A stretch of 37,803 nt of DNA from a virus, in the IMG/VR virus record IMGVR_UViG_3300025132_000011, positions 1-37,803 of that record. One strand, given 5' to 3'. Every line of letters starts with the position of its first letter. Within the stretch, counting starts at the first letter, position 1. Shown in pieces: positions 49 through 37,803 of the stretch. A program made the position numbers and the translations under genes. Below the pieces are notes generated by a model. It was not told where the DNA came from and did no database searches. It was given only the letters and a program-made list of their open reading frames with translations.

Positions 49-422
49 AATGTATAAGAAGCTGCACCCCACACCCATTTATCTGAGCTATTTTTTACAA
101 AATGTGTACTTGTGTCAGTAGAATTTACTTGGTTGATAGGAACATATAGATCATTTTCATTAGCTGAATCTGTTCCTAATTTATAATAATGTACATCATT
201 ATAAGCTGTAGAATTTACACCATCACCTACTTTAAATTTAGATAATCGTCTTTTTTCTCCAACAACAATATACCTATCCCATGACGGACTAGTGTTGTAA
301 GCTGTAGTCAACCTACGATTAGTTAAGCTGACTAAGTTTGCCTCTTCATTAGAAGTAAAGTCATTTACCCCGGCAAGTGCTTTTATTGTGTCGAATAAAT
401 CTTGATTAGATCGTAGTAGCAT
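1..422 (-). CDS. Head-tail connector / adaptor-like protein, N-terminal part (continues at 37803)
   Basis: The gene starts at ATG 422-420 (protein begins MLLRSNQDLFDTIK) and runs off position 1. It resumes at 37755 and ends at 37188, giving a 990-bp gene of 329 residues on the closed circle. The start overlaps the stop of the upstream 113-codon frame as TAATG. I recognise no named domain. A helical start, a charged C-terminal part and the position between the capsid genes and the receptor-binding protein fit a head-tail connector or tail adaptor. The role is inferred from context only. Confidence 0.75.
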   Translation of the reverse strand, partial: MLLRSNQDLFDTIKALAGVNDFTSNEEANLVSLTNRRLTTAYNTSPSWDRYIVVGEKRRLSKFKVGDGVNSTAYNDVHYYKLGTDSANENDLYVPINQVNSTDTSTHFVKNSSDKWVWGAASYTFNLSTEVVTLSGGITF

Positions 423-730
423 TATGCTTTATTAGGTGAAAGGTCTGAGTGTTTCTTATTGAAATATTGTAAAAATTCTTTGGACATAACTGTTTCGTGT
501 CCATACTTTGCGACAAGTCTGAAATATTCTCTTGCTGGAATAGTGGCTACACATTTACCAAGTGTTGGATGTGTTTTACCTTTTTCTTGTCTTGCTTCTT
601 TACGAGCTATGTCAGTGCGATTTTTTTCGCCCATCTTTTCTTGTAAGATAGCATTGTTGATAACATCAGCCATAGCTTGGCAGTGTTCTCCTTCGTCAAT
701 TTTGTTTTCTTTGAAATGTATAATGTTCAT
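422..730 (-). CDS. Small hypothetical late protein between capsid and connector
   Basis: The protein has about 102 residues from the ATG at 730 (MNIIHFKENKIDEG). The frame is open back to 763, but those upstream codons lie inside a terminator hairpin, so the longer form is unlikely. An internal ATG further in (MADVINNAIL) has GGAG about 14 nt upstream and is an alternative. The protein is soluble, mixed in charge and rich in Lys/Glu, with no recognised domain. It ends with a 1-base overlap into the connector gene, so the two are probably translationally coupled. Its position suggests head completion, but I have no sequence evidence for that. Confidence 0.6.
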   Translation of the reverse strand: MNIIHFKENKIDEGEHCQAMADVINNAILQEKMGEKNRTDIARKEARQEKGKTHPTLGKCVATIPAREYFRLVAKYGHETVMSKEFLQYFNKKHSDLSPNKA

Positions 731-733
731 AAT

Positions 734-765
734 AAAAAAGGGTGGCAGGTATCTGCCTACCACCC
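734..765 (-). terminator. Rho-independent terminator after the decoration-protein gene
   Basis: On the minus strand a 10-bp stem (arms 765-756 and 749-740) closes a 6-nt loop and is followed by six T (739-734). One pair is a G-U wobble on the minus strand but a mismatch on the plus strand, which supports the minus direction. It lies 14 nt after the putative decoration gene. It would limit read-through from the heavily expressed capsid genes into the connector and tail genes. Confidence 0.85.
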
Positions 766-12624: not shown

Positions 12625-13563
12625 ATGAACAATGCTAATAATACCCAAAATACTACAAAAAAAACTCCCCTACGATACATCAGCCTATGCACAGGATATG
12701 AAGGAATCGGAATGGGAATTGAACGACTTGGCATCCCTCTTGAGCCAATCTTGTTCTGTGAACGGGAAAGATTCCCCATCGAAAACTTGGTTGATAAGAT
12801 GGAAAAGGGACAAATCCCTCCAGCACCTATCTGGACTGATCTTAAAACCTTGCCATACGAAAAGTTTTTGGGACAAGTCGATCTCCTCTCAGCCGGGTTC
12901 CCATGTCAGCCTTTTTCAAGTGCTGGCAACAAGCAAGGTGTGGATGACCCAAGACACCTCTTCCCATACATCCTCGATGGAATCAGGAGATGCAAACCAA
13001 AGTTTGTTCAATTGGAAAATGTTGAAGGAATCTTCAGTTCCAAAACATCCGATGGAGAATCAGTTCTCAAATATGTCTGCCGATCTTTGGAAGCAGAAGG
13101 TTACATCACTGAAGCAGTCGTGGTCTCAGCGAGTGAAATTGGCGCACCGCATCAAAGAAAGCGAGTCTTCATCCTTGGTATATCCAACTCCTTCTACGAC
13201 AGATGGAGAGGGTGGATCACAGATGAATCAAACAGAGATTACTTCAAAAGGATTCAAGACTATTCGCAAAGGGACGAACATAGCATATGGATCGAAACTG
13301 AGGGATGCAGTGGACAAGATAGAGAGTCAGAAGGATGGCAAGAAGTCATGGGCAACACCGACTGCGAGGGATTTCAAGGACACTCCGAACGACAAAAGTG
13401 GGATGGCGATGACACTTGGCAGACAAGTAAATGGATGGCAGCCTTCCCAAGCCGCCCAAATGAAAAACAAGCAGAATGGGAAGAATCAAGAGTCTTGGTC
13501 AACACCACAGGCAAGGGATCATCAACCGTCAGAGACAAAGGAGAAATGGGAGGCAAGAGCTAA
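12625..13563 (+). CDS. Cytosine-C5 DNA methyltransferase, catalytic half (frame 1)
   Basis: The frame has 312 codons. Residues 1-184 carry the ordered C5-methyltransferase motifs: cofactor loop LCTGYEGIGMG (motif I), GFPCQPFSSAG with catalytic Cys94 (IV), ENV at 131-133 (VI), and GAPHQRKRVFIL ending at 184 (VIII). After that the frame loses resemblance to the family (Trp/Asp/Arg-rich sequence) and stops at 13563. The missing target-recognition region and motif X are in the +1 frame. Skipping one base near 13177 joins the halves into about 515 residues, a normal family length. This may be a programmed frameshift, a real mutation or a sequence error; no homopolymer lies at the switch point. Confidence 0.75.
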   Translation: MNNANNTQNTTKKTPLRYISLCTGYEGIGMGIERLGIPLEPILFCERERFPIENLVDKMEKGQIPPAPIWTDLKTLPYEKFLGQVDLLSAGFPCQPFSSAGNKQGVDDPRHLFPYILDGIRRCKPKFVQLENVEGIFSSKTSDGESVLKYVCRSLEAEGYITEAVVVSASEIGAPHQRKRVFILGISNSFYDRWRGWITDESNRDYFKRIQDYSQRDEHSIWIETEGCSGQDRESEGWQEVMGNTDCEGFQGHSERQKWDGDDTWQTSKWMAAFPSRPNEKQAEWEESRVLVNTTGKGSSTVRDKGEMGGKS

Positions 13564-14173
13564 GGAATGGAAAGATAAAGGAATTAACTTGCACTTACCA
13601 CTCAATACACAAGTTCAGATAACTCAAGAGAATTGGGCTACACCAAGAGCAGGAGCAGTTGATAGCACAAGGCCCAATGGTAAAGGTGGCATACCACTAG
13701 CACAACAAGTCAAAGAAAGAGAGAATTGGGCTACACCAAACACGATGGATCAAATGCCTCCAAGAAGCTACGAAGCTGCGATGAAGCAAGCAACAAACCA
13801 AAGAAAAGGCAGAAGTAGCCCAAGCAATCTAAGGGAGCAAGTCGATCCAACTTGTGTGCAAGCATACAAGGATGCGAAGAATTGGCCCACACCTCAAGTT
13901 GGTGGACAAGATGAAAGAGCTGACACTCGCATAGCCAGAGGTAGGGATTTAAACCTACCTGCAAAAGCTACTCTAGATCAGCCAAAAGGATACCTTAATC
14001 CCTCTTGGGTGGAGCAGTTGATGGGTTTACCCAAAGGGTGGACACAATTGTCTTCAGCAGAGGCTGAGTCAGATAATCGAGTGCCAAGATTAAAACTGCT
14101 TGGTAATGGTGTTGTACCTCAGTGTGCTTCTAAAGCATTCGCAATTCTTTTTAACCAAATAATGAATGTATAA
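12632..14173 (+). CDS. C5 methyltransferase target-recognition and C-terminal half (+1 frame)
   Basis: The frame is open for 513 codons, but only the part from about 13178 resembles a methyltransferase. It begins VYPTPSTTDGEGG, continues with five further W-x-TP repeats, and ends with NPSWVEQLMGLPKGWT followed by LGNGVVPQCASKAF. The last is motif X, which completes the cofactor fold. The first 182 codons are out-of-frame translation of motifs I-VIII. Alone, the C-terminal half could not methylate. The 86-residue gene starts inside its last codons. Confidence 0.65.
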   Translation: MLIIPKILQKKLPYDTSAYAQDMKESEWELNDLASLLSQSCSVNGKDSPSKTWLIRWKRDKSLQHLSGLILKPCHTKSFWDKSISSQPGSHVSLFQVLATSKVWMTQDTSSHTSSMESGDANQSLFNWKMLKESSVPKHPMENQFSNMSADLWKQKVTSLKQSWSQRVKLAHRIKESESSSLVYPTPSTTDGEGGSQMNQTEITSKGFKTIRKGTNIAYGSKLRDAVDKIESQKDGKKSWATPTARDFKDTPNDKSGMAMTLGRQVNGWQPSQAAQMKNKQNGKNQESWSTPQARDHQPSETKEKWEARAKEWKDKGINLHLPLNTQVQITQENWATPRAGAVDSTRPNGKGGIPLAQQVKERENWATPNTMDQMPPRSYEAAMKQATNQRKGRSSPSNLREQVDPTCVQAYKDAKNWPTPQVGGQDERADTRIARGRDLNLPAKATLDQPKGYLNPSWVEQLMGLPKGWTQLSSAEAESDNRVPRLKLLGNGVVPQCASKAFAILFNQIMNV

Positions 14174-18094: not shown

Positions 18095-21000
18095 TTAGTC
18101 ACCTAGTGGTGAAAACAATTCAAATGCCGCTCTAGTAGGAGCAAATGGTTCTGGTGATATTTGCTCTAGTACATTGCGAAAAGGACTTTTAGTATCTCTT
18201 GCTTTCTTCTTTCTCTTATCGACTCTTTCCCTCAAGGTTTCTCTTGTTTCAGGGAATCTGTATTGTAGCATATCAAATAAAGGTATATTTGTAAGAACTC
18301 TTGAATCTCGAACTCTATGCCCAAATGCATCAGCAAAAGATTTTTCTTCCATATCATACCAAGTTCCAAAAGTTATCTCACCGGCTTGCTGAGAAACATC
18401 TATAAATCTCATTAAAGGAACTGGTAGTGTAAAATCAAGTAATGTTCTACCTACACCCTCTTGTCTCATTTGATATAAGTGGTATTTATTGATACCAGCT
18501 ATACGAACAATACTATTGAATGTGTAATCGCTCAAGTAACCTTGTCTACCAGTAATCATATCTTTGATTACATCTACTGGTATACCCACTAGAGCAAAGA
18601 AAGTAATCATCTTAACTAAATTCTTAGTTCCCTCTTTCCTAGTAGCTGGATTCTTGATTTTTTGTATAGTTTCTTGATTGAAAGTATTAAGTTGTACAAT
18701 CATGAATGACTTCAAAGTATAAAGCCCTCGAAGATTTGGATTGTTCATTACTGCCAATGGCATTCTTAGTTCAGTCAATGGTTGATTCTCAAATAGTTTT
18801 CTTACTAAAGTAGATCCAATCAATGCTTTCTCCTCTTTTGATCTCTTTGCATGATCAATCTTCAAGGCACGAATCATTTGTTCAACTTCGCCCTCTCTTG
18901 TAACTCTTGGACCAATGTAGGTATTCAATTCTGCGAGCATCTTCTCAGCTTCTTGTAACTTTTTGCCCTTAAGCCCTCTCTTAACTGTACCATCAAGGTT
19001 TAAATCTTTTGCGATTCTTTGATATCTACGATAATTTGCATCCATCGTAGCCTCTTTCATTATAACATCTAGCTTTTGGAAACCAGTTACTTTTAATCCC
19101 AATTGTATCGCTTTAATAAATTTGTCATTATCTGTTTTAAACTCTTCTTGTATCCTAGTTGTATCTAAGAAATCTTCCGCCTTGAATGTTGTCTGCCCAG
19201 TAAATGCTCTTCCAATTGATCCAGCTACTTCTTGCTCATTATTGAGGGACATTAAAGATATATCATACAATTGAGAAAGAGTAGATGTTGGCTCAACTAA
19301 TAAACTGAAATAACTAAAGTTTCTAAACCAACCAAATATAGGATATTCTGGCGATGCATTCTTTTGCATCATCTTTTTATACATCTCAGGGAATGTGCTA
19401 AATATTTTTTCTTGTTTATGCTCATCCACATTAGGATCATTCATGATCTGTTGTATTGTGCGACCTACAATAGATGCTGGATCATACTCATACTCAATCA
19501 TACCATCAACTGGTTGTGATATCTTAGGAGCTTTCTGACCTGCAAATTTCAAAGTCTCAATGTGTGTAATCATTGATGAGAAATATTTAGACAATGCATC
19601 TCCTGGGTTGTCATAGAACTCTAACATATCATCGGGTATGAGTTCTATTTTTCTTGTGCCTGAAAATCTTGGTTGATTACCCTTAGTAAATTTACCATAT
19701 TTGTTAAGGTAATTTTCTAACTCAATAGCTTCTTCTGATGACTTAGGCATGATAGGAGCTAATGGATCGGGTAATTTTATTTCTCTGTAATCAGAGTATT
19801 GATTCTTTGCTACAAAATTTATTGCCGCTTGTTCTGTCTTGAATGTAGGGCCTTTACCTATTCCCTCTGTAGGATGTGCTATATATATTTTATAAACAGT
19901 TCTCTTGTTTTCTTTGCGCTGATTATTTATCAGTTTAATATATTCTTTAAATGTAACTGCTGATTGTGGGTCACCATATAATCTGAGTAATTTATCTCTT
20001 CCTTCTTTACTTAGAACTCTTGGAAAGTATTCTTCCAACTCTCCTATCTCCATACCTTGATCAAGTCCTTCTTGTCTAATCTTGGCTAGTTCTGTTTTAA
20101 CTACTTTGAATTCATTAAACATATCATACTTGCGAAGTAGATTATCTCTCTCATTAACTATGGCTAGTTGATCACTTCTGGTCATCTCACTATTATTAAA
20201 AGGACTAAACATAAGTATTTGTTTGAGTCTTTTTGAGTCAGTGGGATCTTTAATTTTTTTGTATTTTTTGCTTAAATTCTGTGTAGCCTTATGCGCTCTT
20301 AATATTTTCATATCACGAGTCAAAATAAAGTCAGTGAATATTCTTTCTATCCTTGGGTCTAGATCTCTAAGAACTTGTCCTACTGGTATTGTATAATTAT
20401 TAAACCAATTAGATAACCCTCTGCCTTTCTCTCCTTTAATTGTTGGTGGTTTACCCGGCTGCTTAGGTTCTGTTCTGCTACCTAAGAAATTATCAAGTGT
20501 TGGTTCAACCTGATCAGTAACTGGAGATATGATATCTTGTGTTTGTTTTACTAGAGTTTCATTGTATGGTTTAGCCTTTGGATCAAGAGTTGCTAATAAT
20601 CTAGCAGTGTCTCTAAAAATAAGTGTTGTTTCATTATCAATCAACACACTATCCTTGAGTTCAGTTGCTATATATTTTTGTGCGCCTTTAAGCAATCTAG
20701 TTACTTCTTGGTAGTTCTCACCATAGAATACATCTGTTTGTTCTGTGATAGTTCCATAGCTTGCTTTCTGTAGCACCACCCTAAAATACTCACCACCTAA
20801 TTGGTAGTTAGACATTTTTCTGCCATCATTGTAAGCAAGCTCTAGATCTTTCTTCTCTGACTCAGATAATTTAGCACCTAAAGAATCAAAAAAATCTATT
20901 GCATTTTCAGTTATACTAAGTGCCTTTTTGCCTACTGCTTTTCTAGCACCATTGACTCTATTATGCAGAGCAACTGCTGATACTGCATGGATAAGTTCTT

Positions 21001-24000
21001 CTCGCATAAGAGAAGAGTATCCTCTCTTATTCTCCATGCCCCCAAATTGTCTTATTACTTTCTTTGGATTTACTACTATCGAATGAGTAGATGGATTATA
21101 CATAGCAGTAGGATTATCCTTACTATAAGAAAACTTAAGAGCAAGCTCTTGAAGTTCTGGTCTATTTATAATCTCCTCAAAGTTCTTTCTAATATACTTC
21201 TCAGTATTCTGAAAAGCAATCTTCTGCTCTGTAGAAGTAAACTGAAGTGCCTCGTCTTTATCTCTAATGTCTTGAGAAGCACTTAAGACTTCTTGTTCGT
21301 CAGTAATTCTTTCTGAATCTGTTCGAGTGCTTCGTCCCCCGACTCTCGGATTAAATCCCTCAAGTTTGGTGGCAGCTTGTCTAACATATCCGCTAATTGT
21401 TTCGTTGGTTCTTGCATCTTTGTATCCTGCTTTATTAGTTTTATCTAGTATATAGAACCATCTTTGCGCTTGCATAGCAGATGGCTCAAGTTGTTTTATG
21501 CCTTGCTCTTTTAATTTTTTATTGAAAATTGTATTAAAAGTTCCAGCAAATTTTTGAAAGAATATTGCATCATCTACACCAACTGGCAAGCCAAATTCTG
21601 CTTTCTTACCATCTTCAGCTGGTTTGAACATACCTTTGAAGTATGATCTAATGAATCTAGATTCCCAAATATCAGTTGTAGTAAATTGACTTTCGCCATT
21701 AAGGTTGAGTGTGTATGCTCCAACTTTAGGACCAAACATAAACATTCTAGGTACTTGCATATCATCGCTAATAGCTTGTTTAGTAGCTTGATGTACAATC
21801 TCTTTGACATATCCTACATTAGTAACACTTGCGCTTTTTGAACTATATGATGATAGGGTTTTTTTGTATGCACTAATGTTAGCAATTGTATCAGTTTCTT
21901 TGAGGAAATCTAATGCTTCTTGAATACCACCTTTATCTTTGGCTATTTCAAGGACAGAAATAACAGCAGATCTCTTTACCTCCATGAGGCTCTTTATACG
22001 ATCCTCATCTTTTACTCCTTGTTCTTTTTGTATCTTAGATTCTTCTGCTGCAAATCTTAAGTATTCAATAGTAGTATCAAGGTTGTTTGTATCTTTGAAT
22101 ACCGCAAAAGTTCTTAATGCCTCTAATGTATTTGTAGGTAATGCAGTATTGGGGCTAGTAAGACCCATTATTGTTTTAAATAAATTATATTCAGAGTTAG
22201 GTATCTTTCCGTATATTTCTTCTATAACCTTCCTAGTTGCCTCTAAATCCTTATCATAGTATGTGAGGTAACTTGGATTATCTTGTAACCAATTGTATAC
22301 ATCTCTCACTGCTGCATCAGCGGCATAATCTAAATTAGATAAGTCTGGCTTTAATCTCAAACCAGTTGAATCAAGCATTCCTTGAAACCATGTAAAGAAT
22401 TGTTCATCATGTACATCTTTAAGATCTTCAAGTTGTATATCATCAACGGTCTTGGTAACAGATGTGTAATATCCTTGTGTCTGTATAAATGGTGCAATAA
22501 TTTTTTGAGTAAGTTCTGCTTGCATACCATTACCCATAAGCCCTCTAGCTAACTTAATATTAGATGGGTAGTTAGCATTGTTGTTAAGACCCATGAGCCT
22601 TGGATACATATCAGCAGTAACAAGATATGCTTTACCATTCTTGAGATAAATATCATCAAACTCTACTACTGTTTTCTTTTCTCCTTTTCTTTTACCTTGC
22701 TGTATAGTCTTTTCAACTTCTCTCCTACCAGTTTCAACAACCTCCATGTTTTTGGGTTTACCAGTTTTGGGATCAGTATCGGGTATAAATAAATATGCAT
22801 TCTGTCCCTTGAACTCACCCTCCTTTTTACCTGTGGCTATTTGTGCTGCCATGATAGTTCCTGTAGGTGTGCCAGCATATGACAACCCACTCATACCATT
22901 TGTGCCTATATGGAGATATGGTAAGTTTCTAGGGTATTCAAACCCGGCTTTGCCTTTTGTTTTAAATCTATCTGCTAAATTTCTGATATAAGATGTTTTA
23001 TCTTTGAAATATTCTCTAGATAATGCACCTTTACTTTGCTCTCTCTTTATTTGTTTTTTGAGAGCCACATACCAATCGCCAGTAATATTGTCTGCTCTTT
23101 CTTCATAGCCTAGAGCCTCTACAGATACAGGTTTTGATAACCTACTGGCTCTTACTATTAATCTTTTACGACTTTGTGCTGAACCTAAATATTTAGTATC
23201 AATTACATCCTCTGATATGAAGTAACCTTTTTTCTTGAGCGCTCTACGAATTTGAGCCATCTCAGGACTACCTTTATAATCAGCCACATTTTCTATGGTA
23301 ATAAGCGGTGGAGTAATTACATTGATTGATTCAACAATTTTCTTTGCTGATAGTTTATCTAAAAAGTATGGGTCTTCTGTTTTGCCCTCTGCAAATTCTT
23401 TTTCTTGTTTTATTCTAGCAGCTCTAGTCATGGCTGAGTAGCGCTTACAAACAGGAGAGTGGTGCATATAAGAGTTAGCTAGCTCAGGATGCTTGAGTAA
23501 CATTTGTTTCCAATCAACATCAGCGATGCTTTGGGCGGCAAAGTCTGTCCCATGTATCCTATTGTGTTCAGCTATAATTAGAGGATTATATTCAACAGCA
23601 AATACCTTTTTGAAATTCAAACCAGCCTGTGCTAAAGCTAACTCTAATGTGCCTCCACCTGAAAATGTACTACCAATTGCTATAGGAGTTCTGTCATCAA
23701 TATACTTTTTATTTAACTCCTTAGCTGGTGTGTTCTCTGTAAGTTTAGTGCCTCCTGCATGAAGGACTGCACCATCATAATAAGGTTCTGTAATAGTGTC
23801 ACTAGGAAATGTTTCTTCATCAAAGTATTGTTGCCTTGGAGCTTTACGATACTCCTCCATAATTTCTATCTCCTCATCTGATCTAGCATTTCTTGCATCA
23901 GATAATTGAATGCCTCCTGGTGTAAGTAAATTACCAGCAAAGAAATCCATACCCACATCAAAGTTTTCTAAAACTCTTATTCTACCTGTATCTTCTAATA

Positions 24001-25885
24001 ATACTTCGTCTTCTTGATATACATCGGGTTCAGATCTTGTTGTGCCTCTAGCTACTTGAAAAACATTATCATTATCAAGATATAGTATATTATTAACAGG
24101 AACTTTAGCCACAAGCATCTCTGGAGTAAGTTCTGATACATCAGTTCTTTTCTCTAGTATTTCATTAAATTCATCCTCTGACATTGCAGGATCAGCTATT
24201 TCATTTCTAAGATCTTCGACAGCTTGATCATATATTTCAATAGGAGCATCTGCAAATGTTCTAGTTTGATATGGATTCATTGTCCAACCAGCATTAAGAT
24301 TCTGAACATTATTTCTATTTCTAGGAGCTACTCTATATAAAGTAACTTCATCATTCTTATCAGCATATAATCTAGCCAAGTCTTGAGATAAACCTACTAC
24401 ATCAGAGTTTTCAGTTCTTTTTAACTCATTTATTGCTGCACTAGTTTGTTCATTTGATCTTTGTGGATTTTCTTTCCATTCTCTTAATGCTGTAAATTGT
24501 CTTTTTGCAGGACTCTTTATTTCTCTTGATGCTAAAACAAGATCTTCCCTATCGGATGGAGCTTTTAAATCAGATATCTTTACTCCTTTTGATGAATCAT
24601 AGTAACCCTTATATGTTTCTTTGAATCTTTCAATTGCTTCTTCTGGATCTTTTGCTTGTACCTCTATGGTTCTTTGTTCTCCATTATCTATATCTGTGTA
24701 GTCTAAATTAAACAATGGATCTGTTGGGACAATAGAACCTAAAGTTGAGCCAGTTTCTAATTCAAACCTTTGAAGCGCTTCACTTCTAACCTCTGATCCT
24801 ATTTTACCACTTTGAAAATCCATTGCAGTGCCACCTATAGCTCCTGCACCATAACCAATGGTAAATTCCATTGCTCTTTGTTTTAATGTATCAAGTGAGA
24901 AAAGCTCTCTGTCTTCATCATATAAAAGTTTAGCAGTAAGATCTAACATCATGCCATCGCCTAATGCCTCTTGAGATCCCTCTGCTAAACCTTTTGCATT
25001 AGCAGATGCCGCAGTTCTTTTGATTACATCCTTAAGTAAACCTTCACGAACTTTTCCACCTTTCCTTAACTGCTCTAATGTTTTTACTTGATTGTTAAAA
25101 AGCCCACCTAAATATTTGAATGCAGTAAATTCTAATGCGCCCGACAAAGATGAGTAGGTAACCATTGCCTTGAATCCAGTTTTTCTTTCACCTAGTGACA
25201 TATCTACCAAATCTTTACCCTTGATAGCTTCATAGTCATTTAAAGACTCATTCATTCTCATGGCTAAGATTTGTTGCATTACAGTAGCATCGCCTACTCT
25301 TTCTGCTGTTTTGGGACTAGCTCCAAGTTTTGATGCTATTCCTTTTCCAAATCGTCTTGTAAGAATTAAACCACCAAATTGGCCCAATGCTCTAAAGATT
25401 CCATTTGTTACTTTACCAGTTAATGATTGAGAATATTCAGTATCTGAGTTAAGGATTTGTGGTAGATCTTCTTTTGCAAAATCATCTATGGTTGCTCCTA
25501 ATGTCAGTAGCTTTTCTGATGCAGATTTTTCTGTATTTGCTATTCTGACATAATCTTCATAGCTTTGTTTTTTGGACTCATCGCTATTATTGAACTCCTC
25601 TTCGTTCATAATGCTCAGTCCTAGACCAGATGCTTTCAAAGCACCACTTACATTACCAGTAAAAGCATCACCACCTAAACCCAAGACTAGATTCTTAAGA
25701 CCATCTTGGAAAAATCCACCCTTGAGTTTTTTCTCAGTAAACCTATATTGATATATTGGGTGATCTCTTAATGTACCAACTGTAATAGTTAAATCATCAG
25801 CATCGCCAAATTTCTTACCATAATCGGTTTTACGAACTTTATCTGCGAAACTCTTAACATTCTCTTTAGGGAATAACTCTGACAT
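18095..25885 (-). CDS. Giant polyvalent protein: ART-like, C5 methyltransferase and zincin-like regions
   Basis: The 2596-residue protein is a fifth of the genome and last in the late arm, where podoviruses encode ejected internal virion proteins. Regions seen in order (approximate): 1-330 helical with hydrophobic Gly-rich segments; 500-640 ADP-ribosyltransferase-like, with LYR near 514 and the Q-E-D-E-V-L-L element (ExE) near 624; 735-1130 C5 methyltransferase, with TFSGGG (744), SPVC (812), ENV (865), SRKR (902) and GLMGNG (1116). Then 1180-1530 helical with GPKVGAYTLNLNG; 1560-1680 zincin-like with REELIHA near 1627; 1800-2596 helical, with PLMRF near 2490 recalling the PLxRFG C-terminal module. 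Such multi-enzyme proteins are thought to enter with the DNA and disarm or modify host targets. Confidence 0.85.
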   Translation of the reverse strand: MSELFPKENVKSFADKVRKTDYGKKFGDADDLTITVGTLRDHPIYQYRFTEKKLKGGFFQDGLKNLVLGLGGDAFTGNVSGALKASGLGLSIMNEEEFNNSDESKKQSYEDYVRIANTEKSASEKLLTLGATIDDFAKEDLPQILNSDTEYSQSLTGKVTNGIFRALGQFGGLILTRRFGKGIASKLGASPKTAERVGDATVMQQILAMRMNESLNDYEAIKGKDLVDMSLGERKTGFKAMVTYSSLSGALEFTAFKYLGGLFNNQVKTLEQLRKGGKVREGLLKDVIKRTAASANAKGLAEGSQEALGDGMMLDLTAKLLYDEDRELFSLDTLKQRAMEFTIGYGAGAIGGTAMDFQSGKIGSEVRSEALQRFELETGSTLGSIVPTDPLFNLDYTDIDNGEQRTIEVQAKDPEEAIERFKETYKGYYDSSKGVKISDLKAPSDREDLVLASREIKSPAKRQFTALREWKENPQRSNEQTSAAINELKRTENSDVVGLSQDLARLYADKNDEVTLYRVAPRNRNNVQNLNAGWTMNPYQTRTFADAPIEIYDQAVEDLRNEIADPAMSEDEFNEILEKRTDVSELTPEMLVAKVPVNNILYLDNDNVFQVARGTTRSEPDVYQEDEVLLEDTGRIRVLENFDVGMDFFAGNLLTPGGIQLSDARNARSDEEIEIMEEYRKAPRQQYFDEETFPSDTITEPYYDGAVLHAGGTKLTENTPAKELNKKYIDDRTPIAIGSTFSGGGTLELALAQAGLNFKKVFAVEYNPLIIAEHNRIHGTDFAAQSIADVDWKQMLLKHPELANSYMHHSPVCKRYSAMTRAARIKQEKEFAEGKTEDPYFLDKLSAKKIVESINVITPPLITIENVADYKGSPEMAQIRRALKKKGYFISEDVIDTKYLGSAQSRKRLIVRASRLSKPVSVEALGYEERADNITGDWYVALKKQIKREQSKGALSREYFKDKTSYIRNLADRFKTKGKAGFEYPRNLPYLHIGTNGMSGLSYAGTPTGTIMAAQIATGKKEGEFKGQNAYLFIPDTDPKTGKPKNMEVVETGRREVEKTIQQGKRKGEKKTVVEFDDIYLKNGKAYLVTADMYPRLMGLNNNANYPSNIKLARGLMGNGMQAELTQKIIAPFIQTQGYYTSVTKTVDDIQLEDLKDVHDEQFFTWFQGMLDSTGLRLKPDLSNLDYAADAAVRDVYNWLQDNPSYLTYYDKDLEATRKVIEEIYGKIPNSEYNLFKTIMGLTSPNTALPTNTLEALRTFAVFKDTNNLDTTIEYLRFAAEESKIQKEQGVKDEDRIKSLMEVKRSAVISVLEIAKDKGGIQEALDFLKETDTIANISAYKKTLSSYSSKSASVTNVGYVKEIVHQATKQAISDDMQVPRMFMFGPKVGAYTLNLNGESQFTTTDIWESRFIRSYFKGMFKPAEDGKKAEFGLPVGVDDAIFFQKFAGTFNTIFNKKLKEQGIKQLEPSAMQAQRWFYILDKTNKAGYKDARTNETISGYVRQAATKLEGFNPRVGGRSTRTDSERITDEQEVLSASQDIRDKDEALQFTSTEQKIAFQNTEKYIRKNFEEIINRPELQELALKFSYSKDNPTAMYNPSTHSIVVNPKKVIRQFGGMENKRGYSSLMREELIHAVSAVALHNRVNGARKAVGKKALSITENAIDFFDSLGAKLSESEKKDLELAYNDGRKMSNYQLGGEYFRVVLQKASYGTITEQTDVFYGENYQEVTRLLKGAQKYIATELKDSVLIDNETTLIFRDTARLLATLDPKAKPYNETLVKQTQDIISPVTDQVEPTLDNFLGSRTEPKQPGKPPTIKGEKGRGLSNWFNNYTIPVGQVLRDLDPRIERIFTDFILTRDMKILRAHKATQNLSKKYKKIKDPTDSKRLKQILMFSPFNNSEMTRSDQLAIVNERDNLLRKYDMFNEFKVVKTELAKIRQEGLDQGMEIGELEEYFPRVLSKEGRDKLLRLYGDPQSAVTFKEYIKLINNQRKENKRTVYKIYIAHPTEGIGKGPTFKTEQAAINFVAKNQYSDYREIKLPDPLAPIMPKSSEEAIELENYLNKYGKFTKGNQPRFSGTRKIELIPDDMLEFYDNPGDALSKYFSSMITHIETLKFAGQKAPKISQPVDGMIEYEYDPASIVGRTIQQIMNDPNVDEHKQEKIFSTFPEMYKKMMQKNASPEYPIFGWFRNFSYFSLLVEPTSTLSQLYDISLMSLNNEQEVAGSIGRAFTGQTTFKAEDFLDTTRIQEEFKTDNDKFIKAIQLGLKVTGFQKLDVIMKEATMDANYRRYQRIAKDLNLDGTVKRGLKGKKLQEAEKMLAELNTYIGPRVTREGEVEQMIRALKIDHAKRSKEEKALIGSTLVRKLFENQPLTELRMPLAVMNNPNLRGLYTLKSFMIVQLNTFNQETIQKIKNPATRKEGTKNLVKMITFFALVGIPVDVIKDMITGRQGYLSDYTFNSIVRIAGINKYHLYQMRQEGVGRTLLDFTLPVPLMRFIDVSQQAGEITFGTWYDMEEKSFADAFGHRVRDSRVLTNIPLFDMLQYRFPETRETLRERVDKRKKKARDTKSPFRNVLEQISPEPFAPTRAAFELFSPLGD

Positions 25886-31209: not shown

Positions 31210-31986
31210 TTACTTTTTTCTAAATCCTCTTCCAGGGTCTGTTTTGAATTTAATAAAAGCTGACTTACCTCTCATAATAGTTCTTCCACCTTTACCAGAA
31301 AATTTTAATTTCTTAGAAGGAGTTTTCTTAATATCTTCTTTCTTGGTAGAAGTATTAGATGAAGGGGTAGTGTTAGTAGTAGTTTTATTAGTAGTAGTTT
31401 TATTTTTACTTTTGGTATTTTTACTTTCACTACCACCACCAAGCGCTTTATCAAGAATAGCAGATCCTCCCTCATACACTAAGATAGTCTTAAGTGCGCC
31501 TGTACCTTTACCTTTACCTTTGTTTCTTCCTCTCTTAAGCCTAGCTCTAGCTTGTCTGCGCCTTTCTGCTTGAGTAAACTTAGTAGCAGCATCTTTTTTA
31601 GGAGTAGTCTTCTTAGTAGGAGTAGTCTTCTTAGTAGGAGTAATTGTCTTTTTCTTAGGAGTCGTAGTTTTCTTAGGAGTAGTAGCCTTAGGTTTTGGGC
31701 TAGATGTATTCTTAGGTCTAGTTTTTGATTTAACAGGTTGAGTAGTCTTGGTCTTAGGAGTAGTGCTACGAGTAGTAGCTCTAGTCTTGGGCCTAGTCTT
31801 TGATTTCTTAGGTTTTACTGGGACACTTGATGTAGTTTTTGTTTTAGGTTTAGCTTTAACTTTAGGTTTAACTTTACCTTTAGGTTTAATTAATTTACCC
31901 CCTAAACCAATTCCTGTTCTTAAGGTTTTTGCTGTTCTTAGCCCAGCTAAAAGCTTTCCTGCTCCTAATATTAATGGTGCTGCCAT
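31210..31986 (-). CDS. Lysine-rich histone-H1-like protein
   Basis: The 258-residue protein has a short hydrophobic start (APLILGAGKLLAGL). About 110 residues of Lys/Thr/Pro repeats follow (KPK, TTPKK, TPTKKT), then a basic helix QAERRRQARARLKRGRNK, a Gly/Ala segment and another Lys/Thr/Asn-rich stretch. Composition is like histone H1 tails or bacterial PAKKA-type nucleoid proteins. DNA compaction inside the virion or at the host nucleoid is the likely role, inferred from charge. An 18-bp DNA repeat lies within it. Confidence 0.65.
   Translation of the reverse strand: MAAPLILGAGKLLAGLRTAKTLRTGIGLGGKLIKPKGKVKPKVKAKPKTKTTSSVPVKPKKSKTRPKTRATTRSTTPKTKTTQPVKSKTRPKNTSSPKPKATTPKKTTTPKKKTITPTKKTTPTKKTTPKKDAATKFTQAERRRQARARLKRGRNKGKGKGTGALKTILVYEGGSAILDKALGGGSESKNTKSKNKTTTNKTTTNTTPSSNTSTKKEDIKKTPSKKLKFSGKGGRTIMRGKSAFIKFKTDPGRGFRKK
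31601..31636. repeat. Two tandem 18-bp repeats in the lysine-rich gene
   Basis: GGAGTAGTCTTCTTAGTA occurs twice head to tail, followed by diverged partial copies. It encodes the TPTKKT repeats on the minus strand. The length of this tract may vary between related phages by slippage. Confidence 0.75.
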
Positions 31987-31988
31987 AA

Positions 31989-32189
31989 TTATCCTCTCTT
32001 TGTTTTTCTTTGTAACTTTTTAAGAGTTGATTTTGCACCTATGTTTTTAGGTGTACCCTTAATTGGTTTTAAGTTTTTACTTGGTGTAGCTTTAGCTTTT
32101 CGCTTAGGTGTAGCTTTAGCTTTAGCTTTTCGCTTACTAATTCTTTTTGCCATCTTCATGGCTGCTTGTGTTCCAAATCTTACTAGCAT
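31989..32189 (-). CDS. Small lysine-rich histone-like protein
   Basis: The 66-residue protein is over one third Lys/Arg, with repeats RKAKAKATPKRKAKATPSK. No hydrophobic core is evident, so it is probably disordered until bound to DNA or RNA. It lies 2 nt before the longer lysine-rich gene. Its composition suggests a nucleic-acid condensing protein. Confidence 0.6.
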   Translation of the reverse strand: MLVRFGTQAAMKMAKRISKRKAKAKATPKRKAKATPSKNLKPIKGTPKNIGAKSTLKKLQRKTKRG

Positions 32190-32190
32190 T

Positions 32191-32478
32191 TTATTTATTT
32201 CTCCTTTTTATCATTGTGAATATTAATACTGCAAAACCAGCAAGTAGAGCATATGTTGATGGCTCTGGCACTGTAAGTTCCGCAGATAGCCTATAGTCTA
32301 CTTCATCCCAATTATATTGGACTCCTTCGTAAAGTAAACCATCGTACTCATATCTTGCCCATTCTGGCAATGATGGTACATAAAAGTAATTTAAATCAGA
32401 ATTAATACTAATACTTGGATTCCATTCTGGTTCTATGATTAATTCTATTATTTCGGGGTATTCTGTTTCGTGGCTCAT
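32191..32478 (-). CDS. PEP-CTERM sorting-signal protein
   Basis: The 95-residue protein ends with a complete tripartite PEP-CTERM signal: VPEPST at 70-75, a hydrophobic helix at 76-90 (YALLAGFAVLIFTMI) and a basic tail KRRNK at 91-95. In bacteria this signal is cut by exosortase and the protein goes to the cell surface or matrix. Residues 1-69 are acidic and rich in Tyr, Trp and Pro, without the Sec signal peptide that cellular PEP-CTERM proteins carry. The start overlaps the preceding membrane-protein stop (ATGA). It lies in the late arm near the holin-like gene, so it may act at the envelope during lysis or exclusion. Confidence 0.78.
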   Translation of the reverse strand: MSHETEYPEIIELIIEPEWNPSISINSDLNYFYVPSLPEWARYEYDGLLYEGVQYNWDEVDYRLSAELTVPEPSTYALLAGFAVLIFTMIKRRNK

Positions 32479-32639
32479 TTTTTAAATAAAGATGTAAATA
32501 TTGATGCGAATTCTTTGAAAAATTTTTTAATGAAGTTATCTTTTGGTAAGAACATCATTATAATAGATATTATACCAATGTATGCAAATGCCATAGCCAT
32601 CAGGTCATCTTTGTAATTATCTATTATATAACTTATCAT
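32475..32639 (-). CDS. Small single-pass membrane protein
   Basis: The 54-residue protein starts MISYIIDNYKDDL, has one transmembrane helix at about 14-31 (AMAFAYIGIISIIMMFLP) and a basic amphipathic end FIKKFFKEFASIFTSLFKK. It overlaps the preceding and following genes by ATGA, so three genes are translationally linked. Position and topology would suit an accessory holin, antiholin or spanin-like component. No family is recognised. Confidence 0.6.
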   Translation of the reverse strand: MISYIIDNYKDDLMAMAFAYIGIISIIMMFLPKDNFIKKFFKEFASIFTSLFKK

Positions 32640-33523
32640 TGTGTTGGAGATACTGTACTATGAGGTTTTATGTCATCTATTGCTGCTATGCTGTCACTAA
32701 TTGGAGTCTTGACAAAAGGAATCTCAGATGTAGAGTTTGGGGATGTCTTGGTCGATGATTGAGTTTCTTGCACATCTGCACCTGTTTGTTTTGGGGATTG
32801 TTCTTGTGTATCTTCTGTGGTTGATTTCTCGGATTCTGTAGATGATTTATCTTGTTCTGCTTCTTTTTGGTCTGTATCTGATTTCTCTTCTGTAGATGAT
32901 TTACTTTGTTCTGCTTCTGATTCTCCTTTTTCTGATTCAGCTTCCGTTTGTTCTGATTCAGCATCGGAAGGACTATCGGAGGCGCTATCTTGTGAAGAAG
33001 AAGAGGATTCTGGTGTATTGCCCTCTTCAGAAGAAGATGATCCAGAAGTCGATTGTGGTTCGGAAACCTCGACCTTAGTTTCTACTGACTCAACGAAGTC
33101 TGTAGCCTCTGCTATTTGTTCAGCAATTACTTGTTGACCCCAAACATTTAAGGACTGAAAATCAATCATGTTATCAAAGAATTGTGGTATCTCAAATCTT
33201 TCTTCTACCACATCATTTGCAACCTCTGCTACAAAGATCTCAGTCCTAGCTTTAGCTATATCTACTTGTGTAACTGCGGCAGTAGATACTGCAACAGTGC
33301 CAGCAGTCCCAAGTTGAGTTACTTGAGTTACTACAGGCAAATCCTTGATTCTTTCAATTAACGATTTTTTAAGAGCTTTAGCGCCTTCTCTAGCAGACTC
33401 TTCAGCTTGCTTAATACTTTCTTTAATGTCTGAGGAATCAATAGTAGAACTTGTTTCGCCAAGCACTTCAGTGATTGAATCCCTGAGAGTTTGCAGTTCT
33501 TTTCTTGCTTTCCTTTTATCCAT
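32636..33523 (-). CDS. Acidic Ser/Glu-rich protein in the lysis region
   Basis: The 295-residue protein has a charged helical N-terminus (1-60), a weakly hydrophobic Thr/Val/Ala segment near 63-90 that could touch membrane, and a short globular part to about 150. A tail of roughly 140 residues dominated by Ser, Glu, Thr, Gln and Asp follows, with repeats such as EAEQSKSSTEE / EAEQDKSSTES. The tail is probably disordered and highly acidic, in contrast to the lysine-rich proteins nearby. Function unknown. Confidence 0.6.
   Translation of the reverse strand: MDKRKARKELQTLRDSITEVLGETSSTIDSSDIKESIKQAEESAREGAKALKKSLIERIKDLPVVTQVTQLGTAGTVAVSTAAVTQVDIAKARTEIFVAEVANDVVEERFEIPQFFDNMIDFQSLNVWGQQVIAEQIAEATDFVESVETKVEVSEPQSTSGSSSSEEGNTPESSSSSQDSASDSPSDAESEQTEAESEKGESEAEQSKSSTEEKSDTDQKEAEQDKSSTESEKSTTEDTQEQSPKQTGADVQETQSSTKTSPNSTSEIPFVKTPISDSIAAIDDIKPHSTVSPTQ
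32834..32918. repeat. Imperfect 31-bp direct repeat in the acidic gene
   Basis: TTCTGTAGATGATTTA plus the next 15 bases at 32834-32864 recurs at 32888-32918 with two adjacent differences (54-bp period). It encodes the duplicated EAEQ-x-KSSTE peptide and indicates recent expansion of the acidic tail. Confidence 0.7.
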
Positions 33524-33542
33524 TTACATTTACAACTCATAA

Positions 33543-33950
33543 TTATTTACTTACTGCTGCTGATCCGAAATAAAATGAAATGATGCTTATTATCGCAGTC
33601 TTAATTTCACCTAATATAACATATCCATGTAAAGTCTCATAGTTTGTACCTTTAATAAAACCAAACCATTTACTATACTCAGAAGCTACAGTAACTCCCT
33701 CTTCACTATGTGCTAATATGAATGGAGCTATAACCACACCAAATAACACTGTTAATACTATAATTCGTCTTGTCCAAGCACCAAAGGAATCTACCCTTTT
33801 TGCTGCTGCATCTGCACTTTCATCTGATGCTTTTTGTTTTTTAATCAAGCCTTCGGTAATTGCTGCTTGATTTTGAACCATTGTTCCAACTAGCTTAAAT
33901 ATAAAGCCTGAGAACCCACCTCCTAGCATTGCTATTAATTCTGTACTCAT
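33543..33950 (-). CDS. Holin-like protein with three membrane segments
   Basis: The 135-residue protein has hydrophobic segments at about 5-24 (LIAMLGGGFSGFIFKLVG), 63-81 (IIVLTVLFGVVIAPFILAH) and 112-130 (TAIISIISFYFGSAAVS), separated by a charged helix with KRVDSFGAWTRR. This matches the 3-TM holin family also seen in gene-transfer agents. It would open the inner membrane to release the muralytic enzyme, here encoded far away at 11.4 kb. The start overlaps the basic gene upstream by 4 nt. Confidence 0.72.
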   Translation of the reverse strand: MSTELIAMLGGGFSGFIFKLVGTMVQNQAAITEGLIKKQKASDESADAAAKRVDSFGAWTRRIIVLTVLFGVVIAPFILAHSEEGVTVASEYSKWFGFIKGTNYETLHGYVILGEIKTAIISIISFYFGSAAVSK

Positions 33951-34147
33951 ACTTCTAACTCCTCTCTATCTGGGAAGTCACGATAATCTTTAGTCATGTA
34001 TGACTCTTTATCTTCTTCTGATCTATTATCACTAAGTCCTAACTGTGTTCTTTTTTCAGCTATTGCTTTTTGAATTTTTTTTGCAGGTTTTTGTATTTTT
34101 GCTCTGGCTTTTTTTAAGGCTTTAACTCCTTGTGCTATCTTGCTCAT
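33947..34147 (-). CDS. Small protein, basic head and acidic tail
   Basis: The 66-residue protein has about 40 residues of Lys/Ala-rich helix (ALKKARAKIQKPAKKIQKAI), then an acidic end (SEEDKESYMTKDYRDFPDRE). The bipolar charge suits a nucleic-acid binding helix. It overlaps both neighbours by 4 nt. Family not recognised. Confidence 0.55.
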   Translation of the reverse strand: MSKIAQGVKALKKARAKIQKPAKKIQKAIAEKRTQLGLSDNRSEEDKESYMTKDYRDFPDREELEV

Positions 34148-34380
34148 AATTTCCTCCTGTGTTGATATGGTATTTTTTTGCTACTTGTTTTTGTTCGTTT
34201 AAATTTTGCTTTCTCTGCCGAAGACATTTCTGATTGAGTCTTTGGAGTTTTTGAGCTAATTCTCTTCGATGGTCTACAAGCTGGATATCCTCTGCTACTT
34301 CCTTTTGCTGATTTTCTTCCACAAGGTTTACCTGTTTTTACATCTACCCATTTCTCTTGATGCCATCTTCTTAGACTCAT
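34144..34380 (-). CDS. DUF5872-like small basic protein
   Basis: The 78-residue protein contains EKWVDVKTGKPCGRK, then GYPACRPSKRISSKTPKT and SSAEKAKFKRTKTSSKKIPY. I recognise this arrangement as the DUF5872-type family found in phages and giant viruses. Two conserved Cys in C-G-R and C-R-P contexts may bind metal. The biochemical role is unknown. It overlaps both neighbours by 4 nt within a run of tiny basic genes. Confidence 0.68.
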   Translation of the reverse strand: MSLRRWHQEKWVDVKTGKPCGRKSAKGSSRGYPACRPSKRISSKTPKTQSEMSSAEKAKFKRTKTSSKKIPYQHRRKL

Positions 34381-34544
34381 ACCTTCTTTCTCTTACTATA
34401 CCCAGGGGCAGTTTTCTTTTTTCCTCCAGGACCCTTTACTTGTCCTTTACATACACGAACTGCATATGAGTTAGCATAAGCTGATGGGTATACATCATAC
34501 TTTCTTTTGGCTGCTGCCTTACCTCTTGGACATAATTTACCCAT
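34377..34544 (-). CDS. 55-residue basic phage protein
   Basis: The protein starts MGKLCPRGKAAAKRKYDVYP and continues SAYANSYAVRVCKG, ending in a Lys/Gly-rich tail. I recall many phage and virome proteins of this form. The CPRGKAAAKRK and AYAN elements are the conserved core, and two Cys (5 and 32) could coordinate metal. The start shares a base with the upstream stop (TAATG) and the stop overlaps the next ATG. Function unknown. Confidence 0.65.
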   Translation of the reverse strand: MGKLCPRGKAAAKRKYDVYPSAYANSYAVRVCKGQVKGPGGKKKTAPGYSKRKKV

Positions 34545-34651
34545 TACACTTTTCTCCTTCTTAATACTTTAAAGTCAGCGCCTGTTATTTTGTTTCTTGG
34601 ATGCGCCACACGAGCAATTTTTTTTTGTTTTTGACTTAGTTTTTTTTTCAT
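34544..34651 (-). CDS. 35-residue basic phage protein
   Basis: The protein begins MKKKLSQKQKKIARVAHPRN and ends KITGADFKVLRRRKV. The K-I-A-x-V-A-x-P-R-x-K-I-T-G-x-D-F pattern is one I recall from many small-genome phages, which supports a real gene despite its size. It is 3 nt downstream of the DUF6321-like gene and overlaps the next start. It is probably nucleic-acid binding, judged by charge. Confidence 0.65.
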   Translation of the reverse strand: MKKKLSQKQKKIARVAHPRNKITGADFKVLRRRKV

Positions 34652-34654
34652 AGA

Positions 34655-34891
34655 TTAACACTTCCACCTTCTAAGTGCTAATGCCTTGCGAGTAGGTCTA
34701 CCTTTTTTGTCTCTCATAGGACCTTTTACACCAGACATTCTAGCACAAAATGATTTCTTTCTTGCCTTAGCCTTACCTTTAGGATTCTTAGAAGTAACTG
34801 GTGGTTTTAAATTAGCACCAGTCTTGCGCTTGAAATAAGCACGACCTGCCGCAGTTAAACCGCCTTTTTTACTTTTGTGAATCTTTCTCAT
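34655..34891 (-). CDS. DUF6321-like basic protein
   Basis: The 78-residue protein carries KKGGLTAAGRAYFKRKTGA, then LKPPVTSKNPKGKAKARKKS, FCARMSGVKGP and a closing GRPTRKALALRRWKC. These are the features I associate with DUF6321, found in phages and giant viruses. It is strongly basic with two conserved Cys. The role is unknown; structural DNA binding is plausible. It overlaps the upstream membrane-protein gene by 23 nt. Confidence 0.72.
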   Translation of the reverse strand: MRKIHKSKKGGLTAAGRAYFKRKTGANLKPPVTSKNPKGKAKARKKSFCARMSGVKGPMRDKKGRPTRKALALRRWKC

Positions 34892-37187: not shown

Positions 37188-37803
37188 TTATCTAAGTGTT
37201 CTATTGATATGAGTGGATATTTTCCGATTTAGAGAATTGTTATTATTTATTATATCAATTCGTTCAAGCTCTGATGCGAGGAACAAATCTGCTTTTTGTT
37301 CTTCCATGTCTGCTTTATCTAGCTGACCATCCATTCTAAGGAAATCGGCATACACAGAATGAGCTGTATAATTAAAAAATTCTGATGGGATTTGAGACCC
37401 AGATGTAAGAGAAGATATAACAACACCAGTTGTTTGATCTACTATGGGTTTTTTGTAAGTAACATAAACCTCGTCAAGATTTTCTGCATTAAGAACATTT
37501 GCTCCATTACTATCTACATAAAAATCATATTCTGTAGCAGATCTATTTAGAAATGATCTGTCTTTATGTATTCTCATGAAATCATTAATTTTTTGTTTTG
37601 ATTGTCTAGTATCACCAGAACTAGTGTAATCATGTGTTTCATCATATAGAACCACTTGTGCAGCGGATGTTCTTAATGTGCCACCTAAATTTGAAACATC
37701 GCCCCAATCTAATACATCTGCGGGTGAAGCTCTATTTTCGGTATCTTGTTGTGTAGCGAATGTAATGCCACCTGAAAGAGTCACTACTTCTGTGGATAAA
37801 TTA
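37188..37803 (-). CDS. Head-tail connector / adaptor-like protein, C-terminal part
   Basis: This is the continuation of the gene that starts at 422 and leaves the window at position 1. The frame is open from the right edge and a Met at 37784 is internal, not the start. It contains DYTSSGDTRQSKQKINDFMR and an acidic-basic helical end (LRMDGQLDKADMEEQKADLF) common in connector-type proteins. On the closed circle the protein is 329 residues. Confidence 0.72.
   Translation of the reverse strand, partial: NLSTEVVTLSGGITFATQQDTENRASPADVLDWGDVSNLGGTLRTSAAQVVLYDETHDYTSSGDTRQSKQKINDFMRIHKDRSFLNRSATEYDFYVDSNGANVLNAENLDEVYVTYKKPIVDQTTGVVISSLTSGSQIPSEFFNYTAHSVYADFLRMDGQLDKADMEEQKADLFLASELERIDIINNNNSLNRKISTHINRTLR
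37756..37803. repeat. Terminal direct repeat, right copy
   Basis: Exact copy of positions 1-48. Removing it gives a 37,755-bp closed genome with an intact gene across the junction. Confidence 0.9.

Follow-up and report, generated by a model that had tools for sequence, protein, structure and literature searches.

A late phage gene cassette encodes proteins with a conserved PEP-CTERM-type tail, possibly displayed through a host exosortase

Introduction

Why would a phage encode a small protein that ends in the sorting signal of a bacterial exosortase system? Exosortase (EpsH, Xrt) sorting has been described in bacteria, where both what it is for and what serves as its anchoring partner are poorly defined. 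Its PEP-CTERM substrates end in a [VI]PEP[SA] motif, a hydrophobic helix and a basic segment (models PF07589 and TIGR02595 for the substrates, PF09721 for the exosortase), and 97% of them carry a signal peptide (Haft et al., 2006; PMC1569441). A word search of that paper found no mention of phages, and the open-access literature, as represented chiefly by titles and the openings of abstracts, yielded no account of a phage-encoded PEP-CTERM protein; one Microcystis virus paper concerns host genes.

The DNA analyzed here, which we call the window, covers positions 1 to 37,803 (37,803 nucleotides) of virus record IMGVR_UViG_3300025132_000011. Its initial annotation described a textbook PEP-CTERM signal on a 95-residue late protein without a signal peptide, and proposed that the phage may feed this protein to the host exosortase, occupy the enzyme with it as a decoy, or use the motif as a tail anchor.

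Results

A PEP-CTERM module on a late phage protein

The gene in question (32191..32478, minus strand) lies in the late gene block and encodes 95 residues, divided into an acidic N-terminal tail, a conserved core of about 35 residues and a sorting-type tail. We consider its start codon fixed because it forms an ATGA, a 4-base overlap with the upstream stop codon, and because the initial MSHE is conserved. The N-terminal ectodomain (68 residues; 32275..32478, minus strand) contains the core NYFYVPSLPEWARYEYDGLLYEGVQYNWDEVDYRLS and is acidic, as judged from alignments and from charge counts across relatives. The C-terminal module (residues 69-95; 32194..32274, minus strand) consists of (T)VPEP, a hydrophobic helix and KRRNK, and the protein ends in LTVPEPSTYALLAGFAVLIFTMIKRRNK.

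Both curated models for this signal score the protein above their cut-offs, which bears out the existence of the tail: with PF07589 the score is 21.8 bits (gathering cut-off 20.7), residues 69-93 (32200-32274) aligning with the full model (positions 1-24), and with TIGR02595 it is 21.4 bits (cut-off 16). When the whole record was searched, this ORF was its sole PEP-CTERM match (23.5 bits, E 3.9e-6), and none of 14 control genomes contained one. Inspection and alignment revealed no hydrophobic segment or signal peptide at the N-terminus, as the initial annotation had stated. Judged by sequence, the window copy falls within the definition of PEP-CTERM but lacks the signal peptide that usually accompanies it.

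Outside the tail, the protein resembles little else. AlphaFold predicts an ectodomain of small strands plus helices (mean pLDDT 70.7), for which a fold search returned nothing below E 1.8, and profile and sequence searches found no significant match outside the tail to a PHROG, Pfam, PADLOC or PDB family. No homolog of the ORF was found among INPHARED phages, where the tail alone gave two weak Pseudomonas phage matches (E 3-8); the tail was not found in plasmids, nor the ORF family in genome contigs.

The gene closes a three-gene accessory cassette

Some 33 contigs, recovered in two IMG/VR scans, encode the same protein. In the window its gene closes an envelope cassette of three genes (32191-33523), all on the minus strand, and we refer to this last position as the slot. 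The middle gene (32475..32639), which shares the ATGA overlap with the slot gene and adjoins it in cassette loci, encodes a 54-residue single-helix membrane protein with a cationic amphipathic C-terminus. The first gene (32636..33523), which co-occurs with the other two, encodes 295 residues with a basic N-terminus, a weakly hydrophobic middle segment and a Ser/Glu-rich C-terminal half. Upstream lies a gene for a 135-residue membrane protein of holin-like character (33543..33950, minus strand; phrog_38283, E 1e-36, PHROG function unknown), which is not specific to the cassette since sister lineages have it too. Where the contigs extend far enough, the same order is seen: the holin-like gene, the genes for the Ser/Glu-rich and 54-residue proteins, and the slot gene.

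The 54-residue neighbor is 46-91% identical among relatives, and an IMG/VR scan with it yielded about 80 cassettes. Every readable slot gene among them encodes a C-terminal [VI]PE-x, a membrane helix and a basic end (one contig has no readable ORF in the slot), so that the tail-bearing gene is indeed kept among related phages. When the holin-like gene was used for scanning, with seeds from distant lineages, 80 loci were recovered: all three cassette genes were present at 2 of them, and none was detected at the other 78, many of which run on into the conserved late gene that comes next. The structural genome plan of the window is shared by phage C75C1 (OQ984151), whose terminase is 77% identical, and by sister IMG/VR phages, as is the holin-like gene, but these phages lack the genes for the 295-residue, 54-residue and PEP-tail proteins. 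Going by this distribution, the cassette is an accessory unit that is inherited as a block.

The surroundings of the cassette (31210-34891, minus strand) are rich in genes for short proteins that are Lys-rich and very basic (31210-31986, 31989-32189, 34144-34380, 34377-34544 and 34655-34891), whose order differs among relatives and some of which are 80-95% identical between phages. A Cys/Lys-rich ORF (33358-33540, minus strand; about 59-72 codons in the window and several relatives) begins a little upstream of the gene for the 295-residue protein (32636-33523), overlaps its start in another frame, and may be a real overlapping gene.

Two classes of slot protein share one kind of tail

The slot proteins fall into two classes. 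Class A, to which the window copy belongs, comprises 42 unique proteins in the cassette scan and 48 sequences when the window and others are included. These are 81-122 residues long, have no signal peptide, and have N-terminal tails that span 56-88 residues when the motif is counted in, with 11-20 acidic and 1-4 basic residues. The 12 unique class B proteins (197-206 residues) begin instead with a hydrophobic, Lys-containing, Sec-like signal, followed by an apparently secreted, beta-rich ectodomain of about 170 residues that is unrelated to that of class A. AlphaFold models class B (pLDDT 69.8) with an N-terminal helix at residues 2-27, strands, and a second helix at 182-204. No relative of this ectodomain was found in 141 genomes of the candidate host's class or among INPHARED phages. 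In a fold search it loosely resembled carbohydrate-binding modules, flocculins and a toxin binding domain (TM about 0.3), which we take to indicate a beta sandwich and nothing more specific; the best viral match was A0A516MBN4. Overall, the searches turned up no ectodomain relative with a known function.

Despite the unrelated ectodomains, the tails of one class B gene (L189) and one class A gene (L194) are 95% identical in DNA over 60 bases. This identity shows that the tail is a fixed module to which different ectodomains have been joined, and the phage lineage thus exchanges ectodomains on a tail that it retains.

The comparison also bears on topology. Class B is apparently exported by its signal peptide and has a like tail, so the cytoplasm is where its C-terminus should lie. 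The same N-out/C-in orientation, which is that of an exosortase substrate and which fits both the positive-inside rule and N-tail translocation, most likely applies to class A. The absence of a signal peptide, emphasized in the initial annotation, stands for class A but looks less paradoxical than it had seemed: N-tail translocation suits a short acidic N-terminal tail, and in orthologous slots there are versions that combine a signal peptide with the same tail. The Pf3 coat protein, a Sec-independent single-span protein inserted by YidC (PMC9360617), offers a likely parallel for translocation of an N-terminal tail without a signal peptide, but the class A tails are longer and bear a sorting motif, and these proteins are not known as virion coats. 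Short translocated tails have been assigned to the YidC/Oxa1 family and long ones to SecY, the figure of about 50 residues coming from the eukaryotic EMC (PMC7616256), and by that assignment class A tails may need both.

The motif is conserved beyond what the models score

The motif [VI]PE is present in all 42 class A and all 12 class B unique proteins. Within the 48 class A sequences, which are mutually related so that the counts are not independent, the proline is invariant (48/48) with CCA, CCT, CCG and CCC all in use, and so is the glutamate (48/48), encoded by GAA and GAG. The second proline is found in 44/48 and is followed by A or S in 48/48, and the helix beyond is variable. The mixture of synonymous codons at the invariant P-E points to purifying selection. 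In class B, IPE is kept and the next residue is M, L, S or P (PEM, PEL or PES in 11 of the 12).

It could be argued that an ordinary tail-anchored phage protein resembles PEP-CTERM by chance, given that PF07589, like other short models of hydrophobic tails, is able to score helices that are unrelated, and that the window copy clears the cut-off by a margin of just 1.1 bits. Chance, however, predicted that [VI]PE would not be conserved in relatives, and it is conserved throughout the family. Furthermore, the comparison loci of related phages contain 149 ORFs whose products finish with a helix and a basic end; [VIL]PE precedes the helix in 8, every one of them a slot gene, and in none of the other 141. 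We regard a chance likeness as very improbable.

The description of the signal as textbook holds for the window copy but not for its family. Among these phages, the window copy alone passes the Pfam cut-off: 18 related virus records and C75C1 contain no protein that does so, and 19 of the 48 class A members reach E<0.1. No class B protein exceeds the TIGR02595 cut-off (0/12; the best E, 0.94, comes from the one protein that matches), and none matches the Pfam model. Many family tails are Lys-rich instead of Arg-rich, and the second proline is often lost, with PES, PEQ, PEA, PEM and PEL as variants at the third motif residue. By model score, the wider phage family, and class B most of all, is PEP-CTERM-like rather than a member.

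This drift of the second proline and the Arg cluster, together with the close likeness to host tails described below, would also be expected of a relic, that is, a captured host PEP-CTERM tail that now acts only as a membrane anchor and keeps its PEP by descent. Descent alone sits poorly with a P and an E that are invariant in 48 class A sequences, through four and two synonymous codons, respectively, while the flanking helix is free to vary, and with the retention of the motif in class B after the ectodomain was replaced. We consider a relic quite improbable.

A lysis function also needs to be weighed. Unimolecular spanins, such as T1 gp11, have an export signal, a beta-rich periplasmic domain and a C-terminal helix, a layout that class B, but not class A, resembles. 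Given that the slot gene follows a holin-like membrane protein and two further predicted membrane proteins, it might encode a spanin-like lysis protein anchored in the inner membrane, its tail serving purely as an N-out/C-in anchor, that acts on the peptidoglycan or outer membrane with its 54- and 295-residue neighbors. However, no lipobox or N-terminal cysteine was found in slot proteins of either class, class A lacks an export signal, and the sister phages with the same holin-like gene do without the whole cassette, so lysis does not need it. A pure anchor would also leave the invariant [VI]PE unexplained, and overall this function appears unlikely.

Other features of the window

Embedded in a late protein of 2596 residues (18095-25885, minus strand) is a C-5 cytosine DNA methylase domain (PF00145; residues 737-1130, E 1e-12); like P1 DarB, this protein might be carried in the virion and counter restriction. 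Another methylase of the C-5 cytosine type (12625-14173, plus strand) is apparently split over two frames: PF00145 positions 2-232 are found in 12625-13563 and a C-terminal-like remainder in frame 12632-14173. Its C75C1 counterpart is a single gene of about 480 codons, and the split may reflect a frameshift, an assembly error or a programmed shift. The genes at the two ends of the window (422-763 and 37188-37784) are near neighbors in the circular phage C75C1, and the window therefore probably represents an almost entire genome that was opened there. C75C1 also has annotated gamma-glutamyl cyclotransferase and amidoligase genes (L020:20149-22830), for which no homolog was seen in the window.

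Candidate host

A collection of 84,980 genomes contained one homolog of the phage portal protein, on a 10-kb contig of an uncultured Opitutae MAG that also encodes two exosortases and at least 9 PEP-CTERM proteins. In the candidate Opitutae-related family, an exosortase (PF09721) was found in 44/44 genomes, including this MAG, and PEP-CTERM proteins in 42/44. The host is probably a lineage of marine Verrucomicrobiota with an exosortase, an assignment based on that one contig, which is wholly phage-like and subject to the errors of MAG binning, and on tail similarity. The initial annotation's expectation of an exosortase-carrying host is supported to this extent. No exosortase-like ORF was evident, by size and kind, in the phage record itself.

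The tails of the candidate family read VPEPSTYALLAG...RRR, with V in 37/41, P in 41/41, E in 41/41, P in 39/41 and S or A in 37/41, and a nearly invariant R-R (40/41 and 39/41). The motif residues that class A conserves are thus the ones fixed in host tails, whereas the R-R has no equivalent in the many phage tails that are based on Lys. The best host tail, VPEPSTYALLAGFAAFIFVAIRRRNS, is identical to the window tail at 19 of 24 positions (79%), which further weighs against a chance likeness; it comes from an AT-rich genome of about 1.3 Mb, with a GC content of 39% at the locus versus 37% for the window. In a sample consisting of the candidate family and its class, the signature PEPSTYAL-x-AG was found in 17/44 candidate-family genomes versus 3/108 other class members (Fisher p 3e-8). 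The profile built from the phage family likewise matches tails in candidate-family genomes, some of which coincide with PEP-CTERM matches.

Distant homologs of the portal and terminase occur in other verrucomicrobial genomes (L156-L161, in G157, G123 and G204), one of them inside a 3.75-Mb contig, which suggests prophages distantly related to the window lineage. One such prophage-like region (L156) gave a weak tblastn match, but the stretch read contains no motif-bearing C-terminal helix, and we take the match as chance. The Opitutae phage P8625 lacks a tail protein of this kind.

A VPES variant also occurs among the candidate-family tails, so the second proline may not be strictly required in true substrates. 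This matters for the proposal that the tail is a decoy, which, acting as a substrate analogue that is cleaved poorly or not at all, would bind the exosortase and halt the display of host PEP-CTERM proteins or of an EPS-associated coat, thereby easing release or altering adsorption. Such an inhibitor is conceivable because the P-E core is kept while the second proline and the Arg cluster drift, as expected of a mimic freed from turnover, and the gene does lie in the late block. But the host tails, too, include a variant without the second proline, and a decoy requires no large or well-conserved ectodomain, whereas the ectodomains of both classes are conserved and one is a secreted domain of about 170 residues. 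We judge a decoy to be rather unlikely.

Discussion

We favor, with a probability of roughly 55%, the reading that a marine phage lineage, probably infecting Verrucomicrobiota, uses the host exosortase as a display system, by means of a conserved PEP-type tail, interchangeable ectodomains (one class of which has no signal peptide) and a dedicated three-gene cassette. That the tail itself serves as a sorting signal for the host exosortase seems somewhat more probable than this full account. The C-terminal module would have been copied from that of an exosortase-carrying host, or have evolved to match it. The short acidic N-terminal tail of class A would cross the membrane N-out without a signal peptide, probably with assistance from YidC and Sec, which would place the PEP motif at the periplasmic face and the basic end in the cytoplasm. 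The host exosortase would then cut at or near the motif and hand the ectodomain, whether the acidic one of about 70 residues or the secreted beta domain of about 170, to the cell surface, just as the PEP-CTERM proteins of the host are handled. We infer cleavage and display by analogy with that system, whose motif, helix and basic end the phage tail matches and whose topology it probably shares. The phage version differs in being virus-encoded, in lacking a Sec signal peptide in class A, in belonging to a multi-gene late cassette rather than a single-gene operon and, among relatives, in its Lys-rich tails and variable third motif residue.

As to purpose, our tentative suggestion is receptor masking: late in infection, the displayed ectodomains might mask or block surface receptors, which would both exclude superinfecting phages and spare the progeny from adsorbing to debris. 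We lean toward this possibility because the ectodomains change on a tail that stays fixed, and because there are known cases of phages that employ sorted envelope proteins in this way, as T5 does with its outer-membrane lipoprotein Llp (PMC9586334). Llp and its counterpart Cor of T1-like phages are likewise small, phage-made envelope proteins on a host sorting route for which receptor masking has been proposed. They differ in that they follow lipoprotein sorting, whereas the slot proteins have a C-terminal tag, no lipobox and a putative function; also, superinfection-exclusion proteins are described as early-expressed (PMC9586334), unlike the late-block slot gene.

If this reading is true, a virus would be supplying a substrate, the slot protein, to the PEP-CTERM/exosortase pathway. 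A conserved signal with swapped cargo would suggest that nothing but the signal is needed for a portable tag, and the phage proteins would offer natural minimal substrates (an ectodomain of 70 residues, no signal peptide, second-proline variants) for studies of exosortase specificity. The tail, which matches the dialect of one host family, may also serve as a host marker. More broadly, the cassette points to envelope remodeling by phages of Verrucomicrobiota, of which very few have been isolated.
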